Positions 29,390 through 36,245 of a DNA stretch of 64,000 nt are shown here, piece by piece. This DNA is from Vreelandella titanicae BH1 (GTDB taxonomy: Bacteria > Pseudomonadota > Gammaproteobacteria > Pseudomonadales > Halomonadaceae). The stretch covers positions 930,001 to 994,000 of the forward strand of contig NZ_AOPO01000001.1 in the NCBI RefSeq assembly GCF_000336575.1, in the 5' to 3' direction. Position numbers and translations under genes: made by a program. The first letter of the stretch is position 1. The number at the start of each line of letters is the position of its first letter. The notes below the pieces were generated by a model that saw nothing but the letters and a program-made list of their open reading frames with translations, ran no database searches and was not told the origin of the DNA.

Positions 29390-30670
29390 ATGACTACATC
29401 AGCTGAACTGTTCGATCTTGCCAGTCGCCATATACCGGGCGGAGTAAACTCACCCGTCCGGGCGTTTAAAGGGTTGCACCGCCCGCCGGTCTTTATGGAG
29501 CGTGCTCAAGGTGCCTTTCTGTTTGACGTCGAAGGCAATCGCTACGTGGATTATGTCGGCTCCTGGGGGCCCATGATCACTGGGCATGCCGACCAAGACG
29601 TATTGGCAGCCGTACGGGCGCGATTAGACAACGGCCTGTCCTTTGGTACCCCTACCGCAGTCGAAACCACCATGGCGGATTTGATCTGCGAGATGATCCC
29701 CTCCATGGATATGGTGCGTATGACCAGCTCGGGCACCGAAGCCACCATGTCGGCGATTCGCCTGGCGCGAGGTACCACCGGCCGCGATAAGATCGTTAAG
29801 TTCGAGGGTAACTACCACGGCCACTCTGATTCACTGCTGGTTAAGGCGGGCTCTGGCGCGCTTACCCACGGCGAACCCAGCTCACCGGGCGTGCCCACGT
29901 CGCTGGCTGAACACACTATTACCCTGTCGTTTAACGACCCTGAAGGGGTTGAAGCGTGTTTTAGCGAAATTGGCGATCAGATTGCCTGCATCATTGTTGA
30001 ACCCGTTGCCGGCAATATGAATTGTATTCCGCCTCAACCGGGCTTTTTGGAAACGCTGCGCCGAGTATGTAACGAGTATGGCAGCGTGCTGATTTTTGAC
30101 GAAGTGATGACTGGTTTTCGAGTGGCATTGGGCGGTGCCCAAGCCCACTACGGTATAGTGCCTGATCTAACCTGCTTGGGAAAAATTGTCGGTGGCGGCA
30201 TGCCGGTGGGCGCCTTTGGTGGCAAGCGCGAGATAATGCAAAACATCTCCCCCCTGGGGCCGGTTTACCAAGCGGGCACATTGTCGGGTAACCCGTTGGC
30301 GATGGCTGCAGGTGTGGCACTGCTAACCAAACTACAGGTACCGGGCTTCCACGATGCGCTTACCCAGCGGGTTAACACCCTTTGTGCGGGCCTTCAGGAG
30401 CGTGCCAATGCCGCACGGGTGCCGATGATGACGCAGTCGGCGGGCGGTATGTTTGGACTTTTCTTCACCTCTCAAAGCCGTGTGGATAACTTTGCCCAAG
30501 CCACCGCCTGTAACCCGGATGCCTTCCGCCGCTTCTTTGGCGCGATGCTTGATCACGGCGTTTACTTGGCGCCATCAGCTTACGAAGCTGGCTTTATGTC
30601 CAGCGCTCATACTCCGGAAGATATTCAGTTCACCCTGGATGCCGCAGAAAAAGCCTTCGCAGTTATGTAA
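29390..30670 (+). CDS. hemL: Glutamate-1-semialdehyde 2,1-aminomutase
   Basis: HemL converts glutamate-1-semialdehyde to 5-aminolevulinate with PLP as cofactor. It has 426 residues, the same as E. coli. The PLP lysine is Lys265 in [39 protein letters not shown]-type [10 protein letters not shown], and [16 protein letters not shown] complete the signature set. It follows thiD after 36 bp and has a GAGAGG site. A perfect hairpin lies just downstream. Confidence 0.97.
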
Positions 30671-30734: not shown

Positions 30735-31112
30735 ATGAGAGCTACACTCATGACACGACCAACGGCTTGGCGATACGTGATTTGCGCAGCGGGGCTGCTA
30801 GCCTGTTTCCCGCTGGCTGCACAGTCGCCTCAGGAGCAGGACATGACCCAGATCCATATCACCATGAGCGGTTCGCCGGGTGCTGCGTTTTCCGCCCATT
30901 GGCGCATTACCCATGAAGGCGAAACCACCGAACACGTTGAAGAGAGTGGGACGGTACCTGCTGAATACACCTTTACCGGTACAGAACTCGAAGGCACGGT
31001 AAAGCTGTTAAGTGACGATGAGCGGCTAGAGGTGGACATTCAAAAGGGCAGTAACCGGTCGCGTTCGTCGACTCAGGGGGCAGGGGGGACATTGACGTTG
31101 ATGATTCGTTAA
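30735..31112 (+). CDS. Small secreted protein of unknown function
   Basis: I do not recognise a family. The product is 125 residues from the ATG at 30735, or 120 from a second in-frame ATG at 30750, which has GAGAG closer upstream. Residues 12-31 form a Sec signal peptide with likely cleavage near PLAAQ. The mature part is about 95 residues, polar and rich in Glu, Ser and Thr, with short alternating stretches (TQIHITMSGSPG, YTFTGTEL, VKLLSDDERLEVDI) that suggest a beta-sandwich. It ends in an Arg/Ser-rich segment and TLTLMIR. No cysteines occur in the mature part. It is flanked by hairpins and stands alone. Confidence 0.75.
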   Translation: MRATLMTRPTAWRYVICAAGLLACFPLAAQSPQEQDMTQIHITMSGSPGAAFSAHWRITHEGETTEHVEESGTVPAEYTFTGTELEGTVKLLSDDERLEVDIQKGSNRSRSSTQGAGGTLTLMIR

Positions 31113-31133: not shown

Positions 31134-31161
31134 AAAAAAACCGCCCCTTAAGGGGCGGTTT
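31134..31161. terminator. Terminator after the csgA-like gene
   Basis: AAACCGCCCC and GGGGCGGTTT pair around TTAA. Seven A on the plus strand give a U-tract for minus-strand transcripts, so it ends the csgBA transcript. It may also stop plus-strand transcripts from the small secreted-protein gene, where the U-tract is only TTTA. Confidence 0.9.
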
Positions 31162-31177
31162 ACATGAACTCGATTTA

Positions 31178-31936
31178 TTACCACTGAGTAGAGATAGCGG
31201 AGTTGTTATTGCCAACTTGCACATGAGTAGCTACTGCGGCGGTGGAATTCTGACGGATAGTAGATACGTTCTCCATACCATACTGACCCACATTCGCCAC
31301 ATGACCAACGCCGTCTTGATAAATGTAAGATGCACTTAAGTCAGCATTAACCTGGATTACATTCGCATCGTTGTCATTACCGTTCTGGCTAATTAAACTC
31401 CAAGTTTCATCAGTACTGAGCGTTTGGTAAACATCGGCTGAGTTGCCATTACCTGTTTGCTCAATGATGGAGTCACTTTTATCAGAGTTTAATACTTGTC
31501 TTACATTTGCAGTATTGTGACTGCCGTCTTGCAGTATATAAGAATCATTTAGCTCTCCACCGGATTGCACGACAGAGGCATCATTGCTAGTACCAATTTG
31601 GTAAACAATTGACTCATGCTTTGCGCCGGTTTGGTATACCGACGAAGTGTTATCATCACCCAATTGCCCAACGCGTGAGTATTGTTTGCTACCGCCTTGG
31701 GTAGTTTCAGCATCGTTACCGTTACCAGATTGAAGGATTAATGATGTACGTGTTGGATCACGGTCAAATCCATTTAATCCAGAGCGAATACCCAGCTGCG
31801 CATCGAACACGGGTTTAGTTGTAGTGTTCGCACTTGGCGTTGTAGTTGAGTTTTGATAGTCTCGCGGATCAGCAGAAGCTGAAAATGCGCTAACTAGTGC
31901 GATGGCGGCAGCGAGAGTAGCGATTTGAGTTTTCAT
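31178..31936 (-). CDS. csgA: Curlin repeat protein, CsgA-like major subunit
   Basis: This is a secreted amyloid subunit of curli fibres. It has 252 residues, against 151 in E. coli CsgA. Residues 1-22 are a signal peptide (SASADP). About residues 23-62 are a Thr/Ser/Asn-rich leader. Eight curlin repeats of the form S-x5-Q-x-G-x-x-N-x-A-x3-Q then start near residues 65, 87, 109, 132, 156, 180, 203 and 225. A final half repeat, GNNNSAISTQW, ends the protein. The last full repeat has lost its Gly and Asn. Which of the two curlins is the major subunit is inferred from repeat number and regularity. Confidence 0.87.
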   Translation of the reverse strand: MKTQIATLAAAIALVSAFSASADPRDYQNSTTTPSANTTTKPVFDAQLGIRSGLNGFDRDPTRTSLILQSGNGNDAETTQGGSKQYSRVGQLGDDNTSSVYQTGAKHESIVYQIGTSNDASVVQSGGELNDSYILQDGSHNTANVRQVLNSDKSDSIIEQTGNGNSADVYQTLSTDETWSLISQNGNDNDANVIQVNADLSASYIYQDGVGHVANVGQYGMENVSTIRQNSTAAVATHVQVGNNNSAISTQW

Positions 31937-31995
31937 GGTGTTTCCCCTTGGTTTGATCGTCTTGCGCTGGTTGTTACTGAGAAGCTAAATGCGAC

Positions 31996-32547
31996 TCAGT
32001 AGGTATCGATAGCGACCGGTCGTGCATTGCCCGAGTAACTTTGTTGTTCGACGCTAATGCTGCGTTGGCCACTGCCCGATTGTGAAATTGATATATCTCC
32101 GCTAATACCTAATTGATGAATATCAGCCCTAAAGGATAAATTGTTTCCTTGTTGGGAAATATTGGCAGCGTTGTCGTTACCCACTTGCCAAATCACGCCA
32201 ACATTGTCACCACTACTTTGCGTAATATTGGCTTGGTTATTATTGCCAAGTTGATTAATATGTGAAAAGTTTGCGAATTGATAACTTGAAGAGCGTGATT
32301 GGGTTACATTAGCTTGGTTGTTATAACCTTGTTGTTGAATAATGCTAACATTTCCTGCTAATACTGAGTTATCCACTTGAGCTGCATATTGATAAACTCG
32401 TGAACTTTCTACTAAATTTGTTGAAAATTTATCGTTAGCTTCGGCTGTAGTAATTGCCACTATCATAAGAACGGCTGCTACAAGAGAGTAGTGCCAGTTC
32501 TTATTGGCTTTACATTTTGTAATTTTGTAGCTGTCTGAAAGTTGCAT
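31996..32547 (-). CDS. csgB: Curlin repeat protein, CsgB-like nucleator
   Basis: This is probably the minor curlin that nucleates fibre growth on the outer membrane. It has 183 residues. A long charged n-region precedes a hydrophobic core (about 21-37) ending in TTAEA, which acts as the signal peptide. Clear repeats start near residues 68 (SIIQQQGYNNQANVTQ), 95 (SHINQLGNNNQANITQ) and 117. Two degenerate repeats follow near 142 and 163, lacking the conserved Asn. The irregular last repeats resemble the membrane-anchoring end of E. coli CsgB. It lies 59 bp upstream of the csgA-like gene and shares its promoter region. Confidence 0.8.
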   Translation of the reverse strand: MQLSDSYKITKCKANKNWHYSLVAAVLMIVAITTAEANDKFSTNLVESSRVYQYAAQVDNSVLAGNVSIIQQQGYNNQANVTQSRSSSYQFANFSHINQLGNNNQANITQSSGDNVGVIWQVGNDNAANISQQGNNLSFRADIHQLGISGDISISQSGSGQRSISVEQQSYSGNARPVAIDTY

Positions 32548-32731
32548 ACATTGTCCCTTTGAAACTAATTGTATCTTTTTGTTTCATGGGTTGAGTTTGG
32601 ACTAATTTGAGATAATTTCTATCATATTTTTTATTAAGACTTAGTTTGTTATTGTAGTAATTTATATTTAATAATTGTTTAGGTTTGTGGTTTTTGATTT
32701 ACCATTTTTCTAATGCCAGTAGCTTTTGAAT
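32548..32731 (-). promoter_or_regulatory. AT-rich promoter region of csgBA
   Basis: This very AT-rich stretch lies between the csgG terminator and the csgB-like gene and must hold the csgBA promoter. AAAGGGACA precedes the ATG as ribosome binding site. I could not single out one promoter with confidence because many AT-rich hexamers fit. Confidence 0.5.
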
Positions 32732-32756
32732 AAAAAAAGCTGCTCAATGAGCAGCT
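32732..32756 (-). terminator. Terminator after csgG
   Basis: AGCTGCTC (32738-32745) pairs with GAGCAGCT (32749-32756) over a 3-nt loop, followed on the minus strand by a run of T. It lies 47 bp after the csgG stop. It separates csgDEFG from csgBA as two transcription units in tandem. Confidence 0.88.
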
Positions 32757-32802
32757 ATAGTCAATATCGCTAATGCTTTTTTAGTGTTTTATAAAAGTAC
32801 GT

Positions 32803-33633
32803 TTAAAGCATTGGTATGGAGGCGTTAAGATATTCACTTAAAATAGTATTTTGAATATTTGTATCCGGTGCTAAATTCCAAAGTTGGTTTTCAATACCTC
32901 TTGCGATGAGGTGAATTACGGAAGATTCAATCGCTGACATGACCGCTAACTGAACAGGCTCATTCGTGGTAAGGCCTACCTCAGCCTCGAGTAGACGACG
33001 AAAATCGATAAAACGATAAACTCCTGCTCGCATCTCTTTAGAGTAAATTGTTTTTGTAGTGGTTACGTTAGCCAAGACTTCCCCGGTGGATATTTCAACC
33101 GCACGTAAATTGACCGTTACCTGATCAACTTGGTATTGACCTGAGGCGCCAATACCGAAATATTCAGCGCCAGCTCCCCCTGTGCGTACGTTGGATTCAT
33201 AAGCGATAATACCTCCTTCCAACATCACTGAGGCAGCACGCAGCGACGGAAGTGTATCGGGCTGACCAAAGCGTTCGAATTCGGCGCGGATAATGCGTCT
33301 CTCGGTAAGCAGGTTTTGTAACCCCACACGCTCAAGCGGTATAAACCAACCAGAATCCGCCAATGCACCGGTCAGCATTGCTGCGGCACCTTGGGTAACA
33401 GCGGTCGAGAACGTGCTTGCGGGGGCTGGGCGATATTGGCCAGTTTGATCACGAAAGTCATAAACTGAAACAAAAATGCGCCCTGCCGGTGGCGGTAAAG
33501 AGACCAGATCTTGGTAAGTGGCGCCTCTTGGAGTGAGAGTTGGTTGTGCACCTTCCAAGTTTTCAGACGTCGCGACCATACCTGCACAGCCAGTGAGTAA
33601 ACTGGCTAGTATGATAGATACAATAATTTTCAT
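32803..33633 (-). CDS. csgG: Curli secretion channel CsgG
   Basis: CsgG is a nonameric outer-membrane lipoprotein pore that exports curlin subunits. The 276-residue protein has a lipoprotein signal with lipobox LTGC (Cys16). Strong matches to E. coli CsgG include YQDLVSLP, GRIFVSVYDF, WFIPLERVGLQNLLTERRIIRA, YESNVRTGGAGAEYFGIGA and RFIDFRRLLEAEVG. In the constriction loop, E. coli Tyr51 and Asn55 (mature numbering) correspond here to Ala70 and Thr74 of the precursor, while Phe56 is kept as Phe75. The pore lining may therefore differ. csgF lies 70 bp upstream. Confidence 0.95.
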   Translation of the reverse strand: MKIIVSIILASLLTGCAGMVATSENLEGAQPTLTPRGATYQDLVSLPPPAGRIFVSVYDFRDQTGQYRPAPASTFSTAVTQGAAAMLTGALADSGWFIPLERVGLQNLLTERRIIRAEFERFGQPDTLPSLRAASVMLEGGIIAYESNVRTGGAGAEYFGIGASGQYQVDQVTVNLRAVEISTGEVLANVTTTKTIYSKEMRAGVYRFIDFRRLLEAEVGLTTNEPVQLAVMSAIESSVIHLIARGIENQLWNLAPDTNIQNTILSEYLNASIPML

Positions 33634-33703
33634 GGTGTTCCCCTGATGAAACAGGTTGGGTTTGTCTTTTTTAATTTCTTTGGAATTGTTGTTTAACTAT
33701 TTT

Positions 33704-34117
33704 TTAAGGATTGAATAGGCCACCCACACTGATTTCTGTAACGTCACCAGTTATTTTATCAACAACGCGTACGACGAGTTGCCCACTATTATCACTCACC
33801 ACTACCCCAAACTCATCACTATCAAAACTTCCTTCACTGACCTCTCCACGACTGACGTCAGAAATTAGCTGGGAAATAAGTCTACTTTCCAAATTTTGTA
33901 ACAAGCGTTCAGTTGAAGATAGGCTTTGAAAATTGCGTGTATTTGGATCTTTATTTGTATCTTGCGCCTGCGCTTTCCCTAGCAAATAGCTGCCCACAAA
34001 GGGGTCGCCCCCAAAGGATGGATTAAGTGGCTTGTAGATTAAATCCCCAGCCTGGGATGTTGCGCATAGTAAAGCGGACAACCCGGTTACGACTAAGCCA
34101 TTTTTTATAGATTTCAT
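33704..34117 (-). CDS. csgF: Curli assembly factor CsgF
   Basis: CsgF binds the outer mouth of the CsgG pore and links export to fibre nucleation by CsgB. The 137-residue protein has a signal peptide ending in SQAG. The CsgG-binding N-terminal segment contains NPSFGGDP and LLGKAQAQ, matching the E. coli NPxFGGNP motif. The rest is a short helix and a C-terminal beta-rich part. Its start overlaps the csgE stop as TAATG. Confidence 0.92.
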   Translation of the reverse strand: MKSIKNGLVVTGLSALLCATSQAGDLIYKPLNPSFGGDPFVGSYLLGKAQAQDTNKDPNTRNFQSLSSTERLLQNLESRLISQLISDVSRGEVSEGSFDSDEFGVVVSDNSGQLVVRVVDKITGDVTEISVGGLFNP

Positions 34118-34638
34118 TAGAATAACTCCTCTTTCCCCAAGTCTTGGTCGGAAGATACCGCTGCGGATATTTGCCGTTCAATCAGTGCTCTTTCGACGGT
34201 CTGCACGGCTTCCCCAGCCGCCCTATCGGCTTCATTTATTCTTGGGGAGAGCTGTGTGCGGAAATACATACGATTGCCTTCCATTACCCATATTTGGCTA
34301 CCCCATCGGGCATCTGGGCGCTCTTTAATGGTGATGGTGGCATTGCCAATAATCAGGTTATCCATCGCCCGTTGGCTAAAGGCACGATAAAAGGTTTTAC
34401 CGGCCATGGTGATCGTGCGGTCTACCATGACGCCAGTCAGCTCACTTCCCCCGTTAGCGTTGCCGCGCACTTCAGGCCCATCAGGGCTTGAGAGCTGATT
34501 AATCGCGTCGATGGCCGCTTGTTCGTTAGCGGGCAACGCTTCGTCCGAAGGAACTGGCTCGTTGGCCAGTACTAAAGACGACATGATCCACATCGCTATG
34601 GTTAAAGAGCCGATGCTCAAACGGCGTATTGATGGCAT
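34117..34638 (-). CDS. csgE: Curli chaperone and gate CsgE
   Basis: CsgE caps the periplasmic side of CsgG and directs curlin subunits into it. The 173-residue protein has a signal peptide (about 1-25, ending LVLAN). An acidic linker of about 40 residues, absent from the 129-residue E. coli protein, follows. The conserved core includes GVMVDRTITMAGKTFYRAF, TITIKERPDARWGSQIWV and the YFRTQLSPR stretch. It lies 24 bp after csgD and overlaps csgF. Confidence 0.9.
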   Translation of the reverse strand: MPSIRRLSIGSLTIAMWIMSSLVLANEPVPSDEALPANEQAAIDAINQLSSPDGPEVRGNANGGSELTGVMVDRTITMAGKTFYRAFSQRAMDNLIIGNATITIKERPDARWGSQIWVMEGNRMYFRTQLSPRINEADRAAGEAVQTVERALIERQISAAVSSDQDLGKEELF

Positions 34639-34662
34639 GACAGTTACCCTTGCGCATTAGCG

Positions 34663-35355
34663 CTAACGATGTCGTTGAAGACTGCGTGCGGTCTCAATAT
34701 TGGGCAGAATCGGGCCCAGGTTCTGATGAATCCAGTTGAGCGCTTGAATGCGGTTGTGAACGTTAATTTTGCGAAAAATGTTGTATAGGTGTGACTTAAC
34801 GGTGTGTTCGCTAACAAACAGCTTTTCGGCAATTTGTTGATTAGAAGAGCCAGCACTAAGTAGGGAAATAATTTCCATTTCCCGGTTAGTGAGTCCGCAG
34901 GCTGGGCGGAAAGCATTACTTTGGTATTTGCGATAAAACAGAATTAAACGCGCCATTAAATCTCGTGACATCCACAGCTCCCCTTCAAGCAGCGAGTGGA
35001 TGCCTTTACAAATTACCTCAAGGCTTTCATTGCGATAAAAAACGCCTTTTAACTGAGCGCACGAAAGTGCTTCAAGGGCGTGATCCATATCATGAATATT
35101 GAAGGCCGCTAGAGGAGTTTTAGTTAACGTGTCGGGTAACTTATCTTGCCACTCTGGCAGTGCATCAATGCCAATATGATCGCTGTCAATGAGAATCAGC
35201 AAGTTGCCCGATGCGGAAATAGGTAATGCTGTATGAGGAGAATGGATACTAATTTGACAGCCGGTGTGCTTGTTCAAGTACTCAGCGAACAACTGAACCT
35301 GGGGACTTTTTTCGGTAACGACATACACCGTTCCGGTAGACTTTTCCTGCGACAT
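34663..35355 (-). CDS. csgD: LuxR-family regulator CsgD
   Basis: CsgD activates curli genes and other matrix functions. The 230-residue protein has a degenerate receiver-like N-terminal domain (about 1-130) and a C-terminal LuxR-type helix-turn-helix (about 150-215): LTNREMEIISLLSAGSSNQQ, then IAEKLFVSEHTVKSHLYNIF. The order csgD-csgE-csgF-csgG matches the E. coli csgDEFG operon. A long AT-rich region with a repeated motif lies upstream, as expected for a heavily regulated gene. Confidence 0.93.
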   Translation of the reverse strand: MSQEKSTGTVYVVTEKSPQVQLFAEYLNKHTGCQISIHSPHTALPISASGNLLILIDSDHIGIDALPEWQDKLPDTLTKTPLAAFNIHDMDHALEALSCAQLKGVFYRNESLEVICKGIHSLLEGELWMSRDLMARLILFYRKYQSNAFRPACGLTNREMEIISLLSAGSSNQQIAEKLFVSEHTVKSHLYNIFRKINVHNRIQALNWIHQNLGPILPNIETARSLQRHR

Positions 35356-35636: not shown

Positions 35637-36245
35637 ATGGCCGCCGTCAATACCCTTGTACTTGCCAGTGGCAATACAGGAAAATTAAGAGAATTCAGTC
35701 AGTTACTTTCACCTTTGGGGTTCGATGTTCGCCCCCAGGCGGATTTTGGCGTCACGGATGTGGAAGAGACGGGGCTAACCTTCGTCGAAAATGCACTGTT
35801 AAAAGCGCGTGAAGCGAGCCTCATCAGTGGATTACCTGCATTAGCTGACGATTCTGGGCTTGAAGTAGACGCACTCAATGGTGCGCCCGGTATCTATTCC
35901 GCTCGGTATGGCGGTGAGCCGAGAAGCGACGAGAAAAATAACCAAACGTTGTTAGCCGCATTAAGTGACTGTGCGGAAGGGCAGAGAAGTGGACGTTACT
36001 GGTGTGTGCTGGTTTATTTGCGCCATCCGAAGGATCCGGTGCCGGTCATTGTGCAACGGAGTTGGGAAGGCGAAATTCTTGCTCATCCCCGAGGGAAGGA
36101 GGGGTTTGGCTATGATCCGCTTTTCTGGTTACCTGATCAGGGTATGAGCGTCGCCGAGCTGCCCAGCGAAAGTAAAAATCGCCTTAGCCATCGTGGTCGC
36201 GCGTTGCAGGGGTTAGTGGAGTTACTGAAGGTGGCGCATGGCTGA
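35637..36245 (+). CDS. rdgB: XTP/dITP diphosphatase RdgB
   Basis: RdgB hydrolyses non-canonical purine nucleotides (ITP, dITP, XTP) to monophosphates, keeping them out of nucleic acids. The 202-residue protein has LVLASGNTGKLREF near the N-terminus. DDSGLEVDALNGAPGIYSAR covers the active-site acids, and GFGYDPLFW with SHRGRAL is at the C-terminal end. It overlaps hemW by 8 bp. Confidence 0.95.
   Translation: MAAVNTLVLASGNTGKLREFSQLLSPLGFDVRPQADFGVTDVEETGLTFVENALLKAREASLISGLPALADDSGLEVDALNGAPGIYSARYGGEPRSDEKNNQTLLAALSDCAEGQRSGRYWCVLVYLRHPKDPVPVIVQRSWEGEILAHPRGKEGFGYDPLFWLPDQGMSVAELPSESKNRLSHRGRALQGLVELLKVAHG

Follow-up and report, generated by a model that had tools for sequence, protein, structure and literature searches.

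The 64,000-nucleotide stretch of Vreelandella titanicae BH1 analysed here (contig NZ_AOPO01000001.1, positions 930,001 to 994,000; hereafter the window) holds a curli locus (type VIII secretion) whose gene content is ordinary for Halomonadaceae, and we tentatively propose that the CsgC niche of this locus is most likely filled by orfX, a small gene convergent with csgA. Specifically, orfX is a candidate gene for a periplasmic amyloid-control protein, which probably serves curli or Fap according to which of the two operons is present at the site. As we picture it, the protein would be exported to the periplasm (its signal peptide was called by visual inspection and a crude rule), would fold there as a small β-sandwich, and would keep amyloid subunits unfolded until the secretion channel takes them. 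This would proceed through contact with the subunits and inhibition of nucleation, with the C-terminal hairpin, K104 and its mostly basic neighbours, making the transient contacts. The first-pass annotation of this DNA had suggested that an acidic linker in CsgE and a leader in CsgA replace CsgC; it contained neither orfX nor the stronger terminator-like stem that follows csgA, and in our judgement orfX is better placed than either segment to take the role of CsgC. For the many non-enteric bacteria that form curli but have no csgC, the means of preventing amyloid in the periplasm is an open question, to which orfX brings a concrete small candidate.

The absence of a visible csgC, noted in the first-pass annotation, extends to the whole genome (5.34 Mb, 48 contigs), in which the CsgC family PF10610 reaches at best 11.9 bits (E 0.88, cut-off 25) and the CsgH family PF21112 12.4 bits (E 0.65, cut-off 27). 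The open reading frame (ORF) with the best PF10610 score is, by eye, unlike CsgC and was rejected. Among 117 relatives, PF10610 exceeds its cut-off in one, G079, which belongs to another family; at the locus level, CsgC lies above the cut-off in L079, and CsgC-like genes lie below it in L080 and L081. In a different genus of Halomonadaceae, a CsgC/CsgH-like ORF stands beside curlin genes and a short CsgE linker (L281:5287-5889, minus strand), with E 0.0023 against CsgC/CsgH and 9.7e-5 against the NCBIfam CsgH model, below its cut-off.

orfX beside curli and Fap operons

orfX lies 64 bp downstream of a gene on the same strand that we take to be hemL (the names hemL, rdgB and thiD are presumed from sequence), and a gap of 65 bp separates it from the csgA end. 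Its guanine-cytosine (GC) content of 56% is close to that of hemL (57%), and the csg genes have 44% against 53% for the window. The product matches nothing in Pfam or PHROGs and nothing in NCBIfam close to a cut-off, leaving it without a family assignment, and PDB sequence searches returned nothing useful.

Among the same 117 relatives, orfX is present in 63 of 73 genomes of the genus and in none of the others. csgE occurs in 52 genus genomes, and only one of these, G071, which holds a csgD/csgE remnant, has no orfX. A further nine genomes of the genus, in which both csgE and orfX are missing (G008, G015, G031, G034, G041, G048, G050, G056 and G067; four of them less than 90% complete), lie outside the loci read. 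Across 250 family genomes, orfX was found in 88 and csgE in 95; in the 175 of these outside the genus, orfX occurs in 22, csgE in 38 and both in 20 (Fisher p 6e-14, uncorrected for ancestry). In all 20, orfX is convergent to csgA, at a distance of about 1 kb or less in 15 and about 6 kb in L253, L260, L262, L266 and L272. The gap in L262 (7705-13387) is filled by pgaABC polysaccharide genes, forming a matrix-gene cluster. In the wider order, orfX matches were confined to 7 of 312 genomes, all within the family, and 46 of 47 named loci with orfX belong to Vreelandella or Halomonas. A 4.2-kb contig (L154), labelled as a Cellvibrionaceae metagenome-assembled genome, carries orfX and csg genes that are close to those of Halomonas and is possibly misbinned. 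Three g253 loci without orfX have a different small lipoprotein-like ORF convergent near csgA (L274:5587-6141, L276:4577-4993 and L289:4722-5159). In csg-positive loci of the genus, omega of orfX is low, with a median of 0.064 over 49 nearest-relative comparisons (L075, L077 and L097 are left out of the omega and cysteine counts, and L074 additionally out of this omega set).

The curli operon is not the only amyloid operon found at this site. In G013, G037 and G072, all Vreelandella or Halomonas, fapBCDEF lies between orfX and csgD and replaces csgEFGBA (L072:3357-7890, L069:4014-8643 and L120:592-5205; 3 of 47 named loci). In L072, fapB, fapC, fapD, fapE and fapF match NCBIfam models with E-values of 7.3e-33, 5.9e-34, 2e-76, 7.5e-33 and 1.9e-107, all below the curated cut-offs, and the fap genes of L069 and L120 were identified from those of L072 by tblastn. 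orfX is intact in all three loci and is followed immediately, in the same orientation, by fapB. In a hemL and thiD tree of 59 genus loci (62 were given; a length filter dropped three loci and one of two outgroups), the fap tips sit within one clade among csg tips, and the state at the site (csg, fap or none) changes at least ten times by Fitch counting. Retention next to whichever amyloid operon is present would be in keeping with a control protein of the CsgC, CsgH or FapA kind, and the exchange between a kept csgD and a kept orfX would constitute a natural experiment on whether one control protein can serve two unrelated amyloids. From Pseudomonas it is known that a single genome may hold both a curli and a Fap operon, as described in the Dueholm 2012 survey (PMC3521004); no report of orfX or of a csg/fap swap appeared among the open-licence papers listed for Halomonas curli, functional amyloid, FapC and permuted CsgC.

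The integrity of orfX differs between loci with and without an amyloid operon. Of 54 genus loci with such an operon, 53 keep an open signal region together with an open domain (50 of 51 csg, 3 of 3 fap), the exception, counted as not intact, being the poor assembly G045 (L097; frameshift, 86% complete). The script rule alone gives 49 of 51 for csg, as it misses L135, where the pattern fell within the signal and which is intact by eye; the frameshifted poor assembly G053 (L075) was left out of these counts, and some csg loci counted as amyloid-positive are interrupted or end at a contig edge. Among the nine loci read that have no amyloid operon, signal and domain are open in three, or four with the doubtful G030; the signal region is lost in G009, G064 and G025, orfX is broken in G069, and it is absent from G071. 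The difference gives a Fisher p of 1e-4 (using four of nine, uncorrected for ancestry). Separately, the csgG of L105 and of L129 is broken in two, with the pieces far apart and, in L129, on either side of a 482-aa ORF; a second 482-aa ORF lies close by, and the arrangement looks like a mobile-element insertion.

Fold of orfX and kinship with CsgC and CsgH

The AlphaFold2 model of orfX contains eight strands, with a predicted local distance difference test (pLDDT) of 94-98 over residues 41-125, and the same eight strands are predicted for a divergent member. In hhalign, the profile of mature orfX (36 sequences) scores 26.7 against 33 CsgC/CsgH sequences over 28 columns (49% probability), and doubling the orfX profile, which allows circular permutation, raises this to 30.7 over 71 columns (53%). 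Both halves of the family give a similar picture: the single and doubled scores are 27.4 and 30.5 (doubled, 60 columns) for the genus and 24.1 and 29.1 (doubled, 61 columns) for the other genera. Against CsgC and CsgH together, the probability of the best alignment ranges over 42-72% for the whole family or the genus half and 30-43% for the other genera alone. As decoys, 70 neighbour-gene windows reach at most 15.1 (reversed, 15.4) and 33 windows of E. coli fimbrial chaperones, pilins and ushers at most 16.3 (reversed, 16.8), a set that includes few unrelated Ig-like families, while reversed orfX reaches up to 18.0. These real-protein decoys replaced a column-shuffle null (0 of 150 shuffles at the observed score) because the latter was too lenient.

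Two of the 36 orfX members match the CsgH model of NCBIfam, and no other of its 18,950 models is matched by more than one member. Specifically, residues 34-68 of L262 align with CsgH 53-87 (E 0.018, 15.1 bits) and residues 41-64 of L266 with CsgH 62-85 (E 0.058, 13.5 bits); the two sequences are related, the cut-off of the model (NF041112) is 35 bits, and the register is the same permuted one as in hhalign. In this register, the C-terminal hairpin of orfX corresponds to β3-β4 of CsgC/CsgH, and its N-terminal hairpin to the last CsgH strands. The β3-β4 hairpin is reported to bear a positive patch in CsgC/CsgH (PMC5135000), and in the 36 aligned orfX sequences K104 is conserved in 33, R110 in 27 and R108 in 24. 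Taken together, these comparisons do no more than suggest that orfX may be a circularly permuted relative of CsgC/CsgH. The further step, that orfX founded a Halomonadaceae-specific amyloid-control family, a permuted, cysteine-free and salt-adapted CsgC/CsgH offshoot that holds a fixed site with csgD while unrelated operons, curli and Fap, are exchanged between the two, and that serves either, appears doubtful to us.

A number of observations weigh against the role and the kinship proposed for orfX. Structurally, its best solved fold match is MmpS5, an accessory protein of mycobacterial MmpL5, with Z 11.0 and a root-mean-square deviation (rmsd) of 2.0 over 85 residues (second orfX model: Z 11.0, rmsd 1.9, 84 residues); at 10-12% identity, this likeness to the closest fold is probably one of shared fold only. 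As to the seven-stranded Ig-like β-sandwich of CsgC/CsgH and its strand order, the fold comparison speaks neither for nor against: the two models match CsgH (2n59) with Z 4.6 (2.8 Å, 71 residues) and Z 4.7 (2.5 Å, 67 residues), at rank 33 in both fold lists and tied with generic β-sandwiches, and the comparison gave no permuted alignment; CsgC is not among the best 50 matches listed in either VIA-align search. At the profile level, CsgH sequences alone give an hhalign score of 24.5 (30%) without gain from doubling (24.4), and eight CsgC-like sequences alone give 14.0 (16.9 doubled) against 14.5 and 17.4 for reversed orfX, which is no match. The corresponding probability ranges are 14-30% for CsgH alone and about 1% for CsgC-like sequences alone, and E. 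coli CsgC as a single sequence yields 0.4%. When CsgC/CsgH profiles were used in HMMER to rank 7043 ORFs, orfX reached an area under the curve of 0.986 with the native, 0.980 with the permuted and 0.974 with the reversed profiles; since the reversed control does nearly as well, this ranking is non-discriminating and counts for nothing. Single orfX members match unrelated NCBIfam models better than CsgH (E 0.0071 both for FixL, matched by the protein of the window, and for CV39L lectin). None of the 60 genus and 22 other sequences has a cysteine in its last 90 residues, so that neither the CxC motif of CsgC nor the two distant cysteines that staple the first and last strands of CsgH are present. 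Finally, mature orfX has an isoelectric point (pI) of 4.8 against 4.3 for the CsgA of the window, and CsgC/CsgH pIs are stated to average two units above CsgA (PMC4838910).

The distribution of orfX adds to these points. In 18 family genomes outside the genus csgE is present and no orfX was detected, which indicates that curli is independent of orfX in some places, and two orfX carriers, G648 and G668, have no csgE, both keeping csgD beside orfX. In addition, if only the domain is considered, orfX is open in seven of the nine genus loci read that have no amyloid operon. Omega shows no rise in ten loci without csg, of which three carry fap (0.03-0.16); the tie between orfX and amyloid is thus not strict, and the open domains may reflect recent operon loss or another role. 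Two of our arguments are weaker for the count by domain and for the profile result with CsgH alone, and our confidence is lower accordingly.

Alternative readings of the locus

It is possible, and in our view unlikely, that orfX is a gene of the hemL neighbourhood unrelated to amyloid and co-occurs with the operons through shared ancestry at one chromosomal site. The hemL-orfX order is kept in every genus locus in which both were read, and the open domain in amyloid-free loci, with its low omega, would be expected of such a gene. However, in 8 of the 20 loci of other genera with both csg and orfX (L250, L251, L252, L255, L256, L258, L267 and L269), orfX adjoins csgA and neither hemL nor rdgB occurs in the DNA read; the remaining 12 have hemL at 1.3-2.3 kb from orfX. 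Additionally, 20 of the 22 orfX carriers outside the genus have csgE, and the orfX signal is lost, or the gene broken or absent, in five of the nine genus loci read that have no amyloid operon. The case for orfX as a simple hemL partner is weakened by these observations.

The suggestion of the first-pass annotation, that the acidic CsgE linker replaces CsgC with or without the CsgA leader, we consider improbable. Both segments are present as it had described, and they fare differently across relatives. The linker stands up to the check that the annotation itself had set, presence in close relatives. The region before the CsgE domain spans 52-82 aa (median 66) in 51 of 51 genus CsgE loci read, compared with 26 aa in E. 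coli, and the mean net charge of the genus linkers is about -7; start codons were set by a crude rule, and five genus rows have no clear start. In other family genera the region is at least 53 aa in 36 of 37 loci, some of these lengths being overestimates, and 33 aa in L281. Where a CsgC-like gene accompanies the locus, in E. coli, L079, L080, L081 and L281, it measures 26-42 aa, of which 38-42 aa in L079, L080 and L081. A short linker where a CsgC-like gene is present fits the suggestion and is confounded by ancestry: linker length tracks ancestry as much as it tracks CsgC, and L281 provides the only contrast within the family. The linker is long also in family genomes without orfX, and L082 has a short one, with the start as read, yet no CsgC-like match. 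Acidic segments are, moreover, common in halophile proteins. The CsgA leader is no generally conserved element: the distance from start to first repeat varies from 29 to 147 aa over genus curlins and, among close relatives, measures 66-68 aa in L086, L088 and L089 and 33 aa in L087 (G005) and L090 (G070). In favour of the linker, CsgE is described as inhibiting CsgA at a 1:1 ratio (PMC5135000).

It seems no less improbable that a dedicated inhibitor is simply not needed, the acidic CsgA of a halophile nucleating slowly in salt and general chaperones sufficing: the mature CsgA of the window has, besides its low pI, a net charge of -14, CsgC loses potency with NaCl, and among the 17 loci read (L273-L289) of the 18 family genomes with csgE and no detected orfX (G572 lies outside the loci read) only L281 has a CsgC/CsgH-like ORF in the DNA read, but the persistence of orfX beside two different amyloid operons is left unexplained.

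Layout of the csg locus and comparison with known systems

Gene calls together with Pfam and NCBIfam matches bear out the arrangement proposed in the first-pass annotation, with csgD-E-F-G and then csgB-A in one direction on the minus strand (31178-35355). The set is complete, with CsgG, CsgE, CsgF and curlin-repeat subunits, and comprises csgA, B, D, E, F and G of E. coli (Table 1). A T-tailed stem was found where a terminator between csgG and csgB had been called, its fold not being exceptional, and the stretch before csgB is AT-rich as described.

Table 1. Coordinates of the csg locus, orfX and flanking features in the window
Feature	Position	Strand	Remarks
hemL	29390..30670	+	one flank of the site in the genus; name presumed; synteny
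orfX	30735..31112	+	125 aa; predicted secreted β-sandwich, convergent with csgA; candidate amyloid-control protein
Terminator-like stem and T tail, csgA/orfX interval	31138..31161	-	-19.2 kcal/mol, z -3.5
csgA-like major curlin	31178..31936	-	252 aa; PF07012 2e-24, PRK10051 4.1e-28
CsgA leader	31748..31870	-	about 40 residues ahead of the repeats; from gene call; variable among relatives
csgB-like minor curlin	31996..32547	-	183 aa; PF07012 3e-10, PRK10101 2.6e-13
AT-rich intergenic stretch	32548..32730		upstream of csgB; 25% GC against 53% in the window
Terminator-like stem and T tail, csgG/csgB interval	32738..32756	-	-13.4 kcal/mol, z -1.45 (not exceptional)
csgG	32803..33633	-	PF03783 5.9e-78
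csgF	33704..34117	-	PF10614 1.1e-28
csgE	34117..34638	-	173 aa; CsgE domain at residues 67-171; PF10627 3.1e-24
CsgE acidic linker	34441..34566	-	about residues 25-66; long N-region in 51 of 51 genus CsgE loci read
csgD-like LuxR-family regulator	34663..35355	-	PRK10100 1.2e-41, under its cut-off
rdgB	35637..36245	+	opposite flank of the site; name presumed; synteny

In contrast to E. coli, in which csgDEFG and csgBAC are divergent, the two operons of the window are collinear; the locus further differs in having no csgC, a long acidic CsgE linker and orfX convergent downstream. The collinear order was rightly recognized, and it had already been reported: Dueholm 2012 describes collinear csg operons in Oceanospirillales, confines csgC to Enterobacteriales and Aeromonadales, and names Halomonas among curli carriers (PMC3521004). 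Because collinearity and the lack of csgC are published for this order, the observation is real but ordinary.

Among known control proteins, CsgC and CsgH are reported to inhibit amyloid formation by CsgA and FapC in vitro (PMC4838910, PMC5135000), CsgC acting mainly on nucleation and losing potency with NaCl (PMC4838910, Fig. 6). Given this loss of potency, a halophile version might look different, and the orfX locus would also bear on the question of whether inhibition by electrostatic contacts is workable in a halophile. FapA, described as intrinsically disordered, is reported to restrain the aggregation of FapC and FapB (PMC12822426), and fap operons without fapA are reported as common (PMC6173800, PMC12822426). 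The place that orfX takes in the three fap loci, just ahead of fapB and in its orientation, is the one held by fapA in Pseudomonas; in L072 no ORF of at least 110 aa lies between orfX and fapB, and no search aimed at FapA was made. Unlike the disordered FapA, orfX is predicted to be well folded. It resembles CsgC/CsgH in being a small, predictedly exported β-sandwich gene beside csgA with weak permuted profile similarity, and differs from them in lying on the strand opposite csgA, in being acidic and cysteine-free, in staying below all family cut-offs and, if related, in its permuted strand order.

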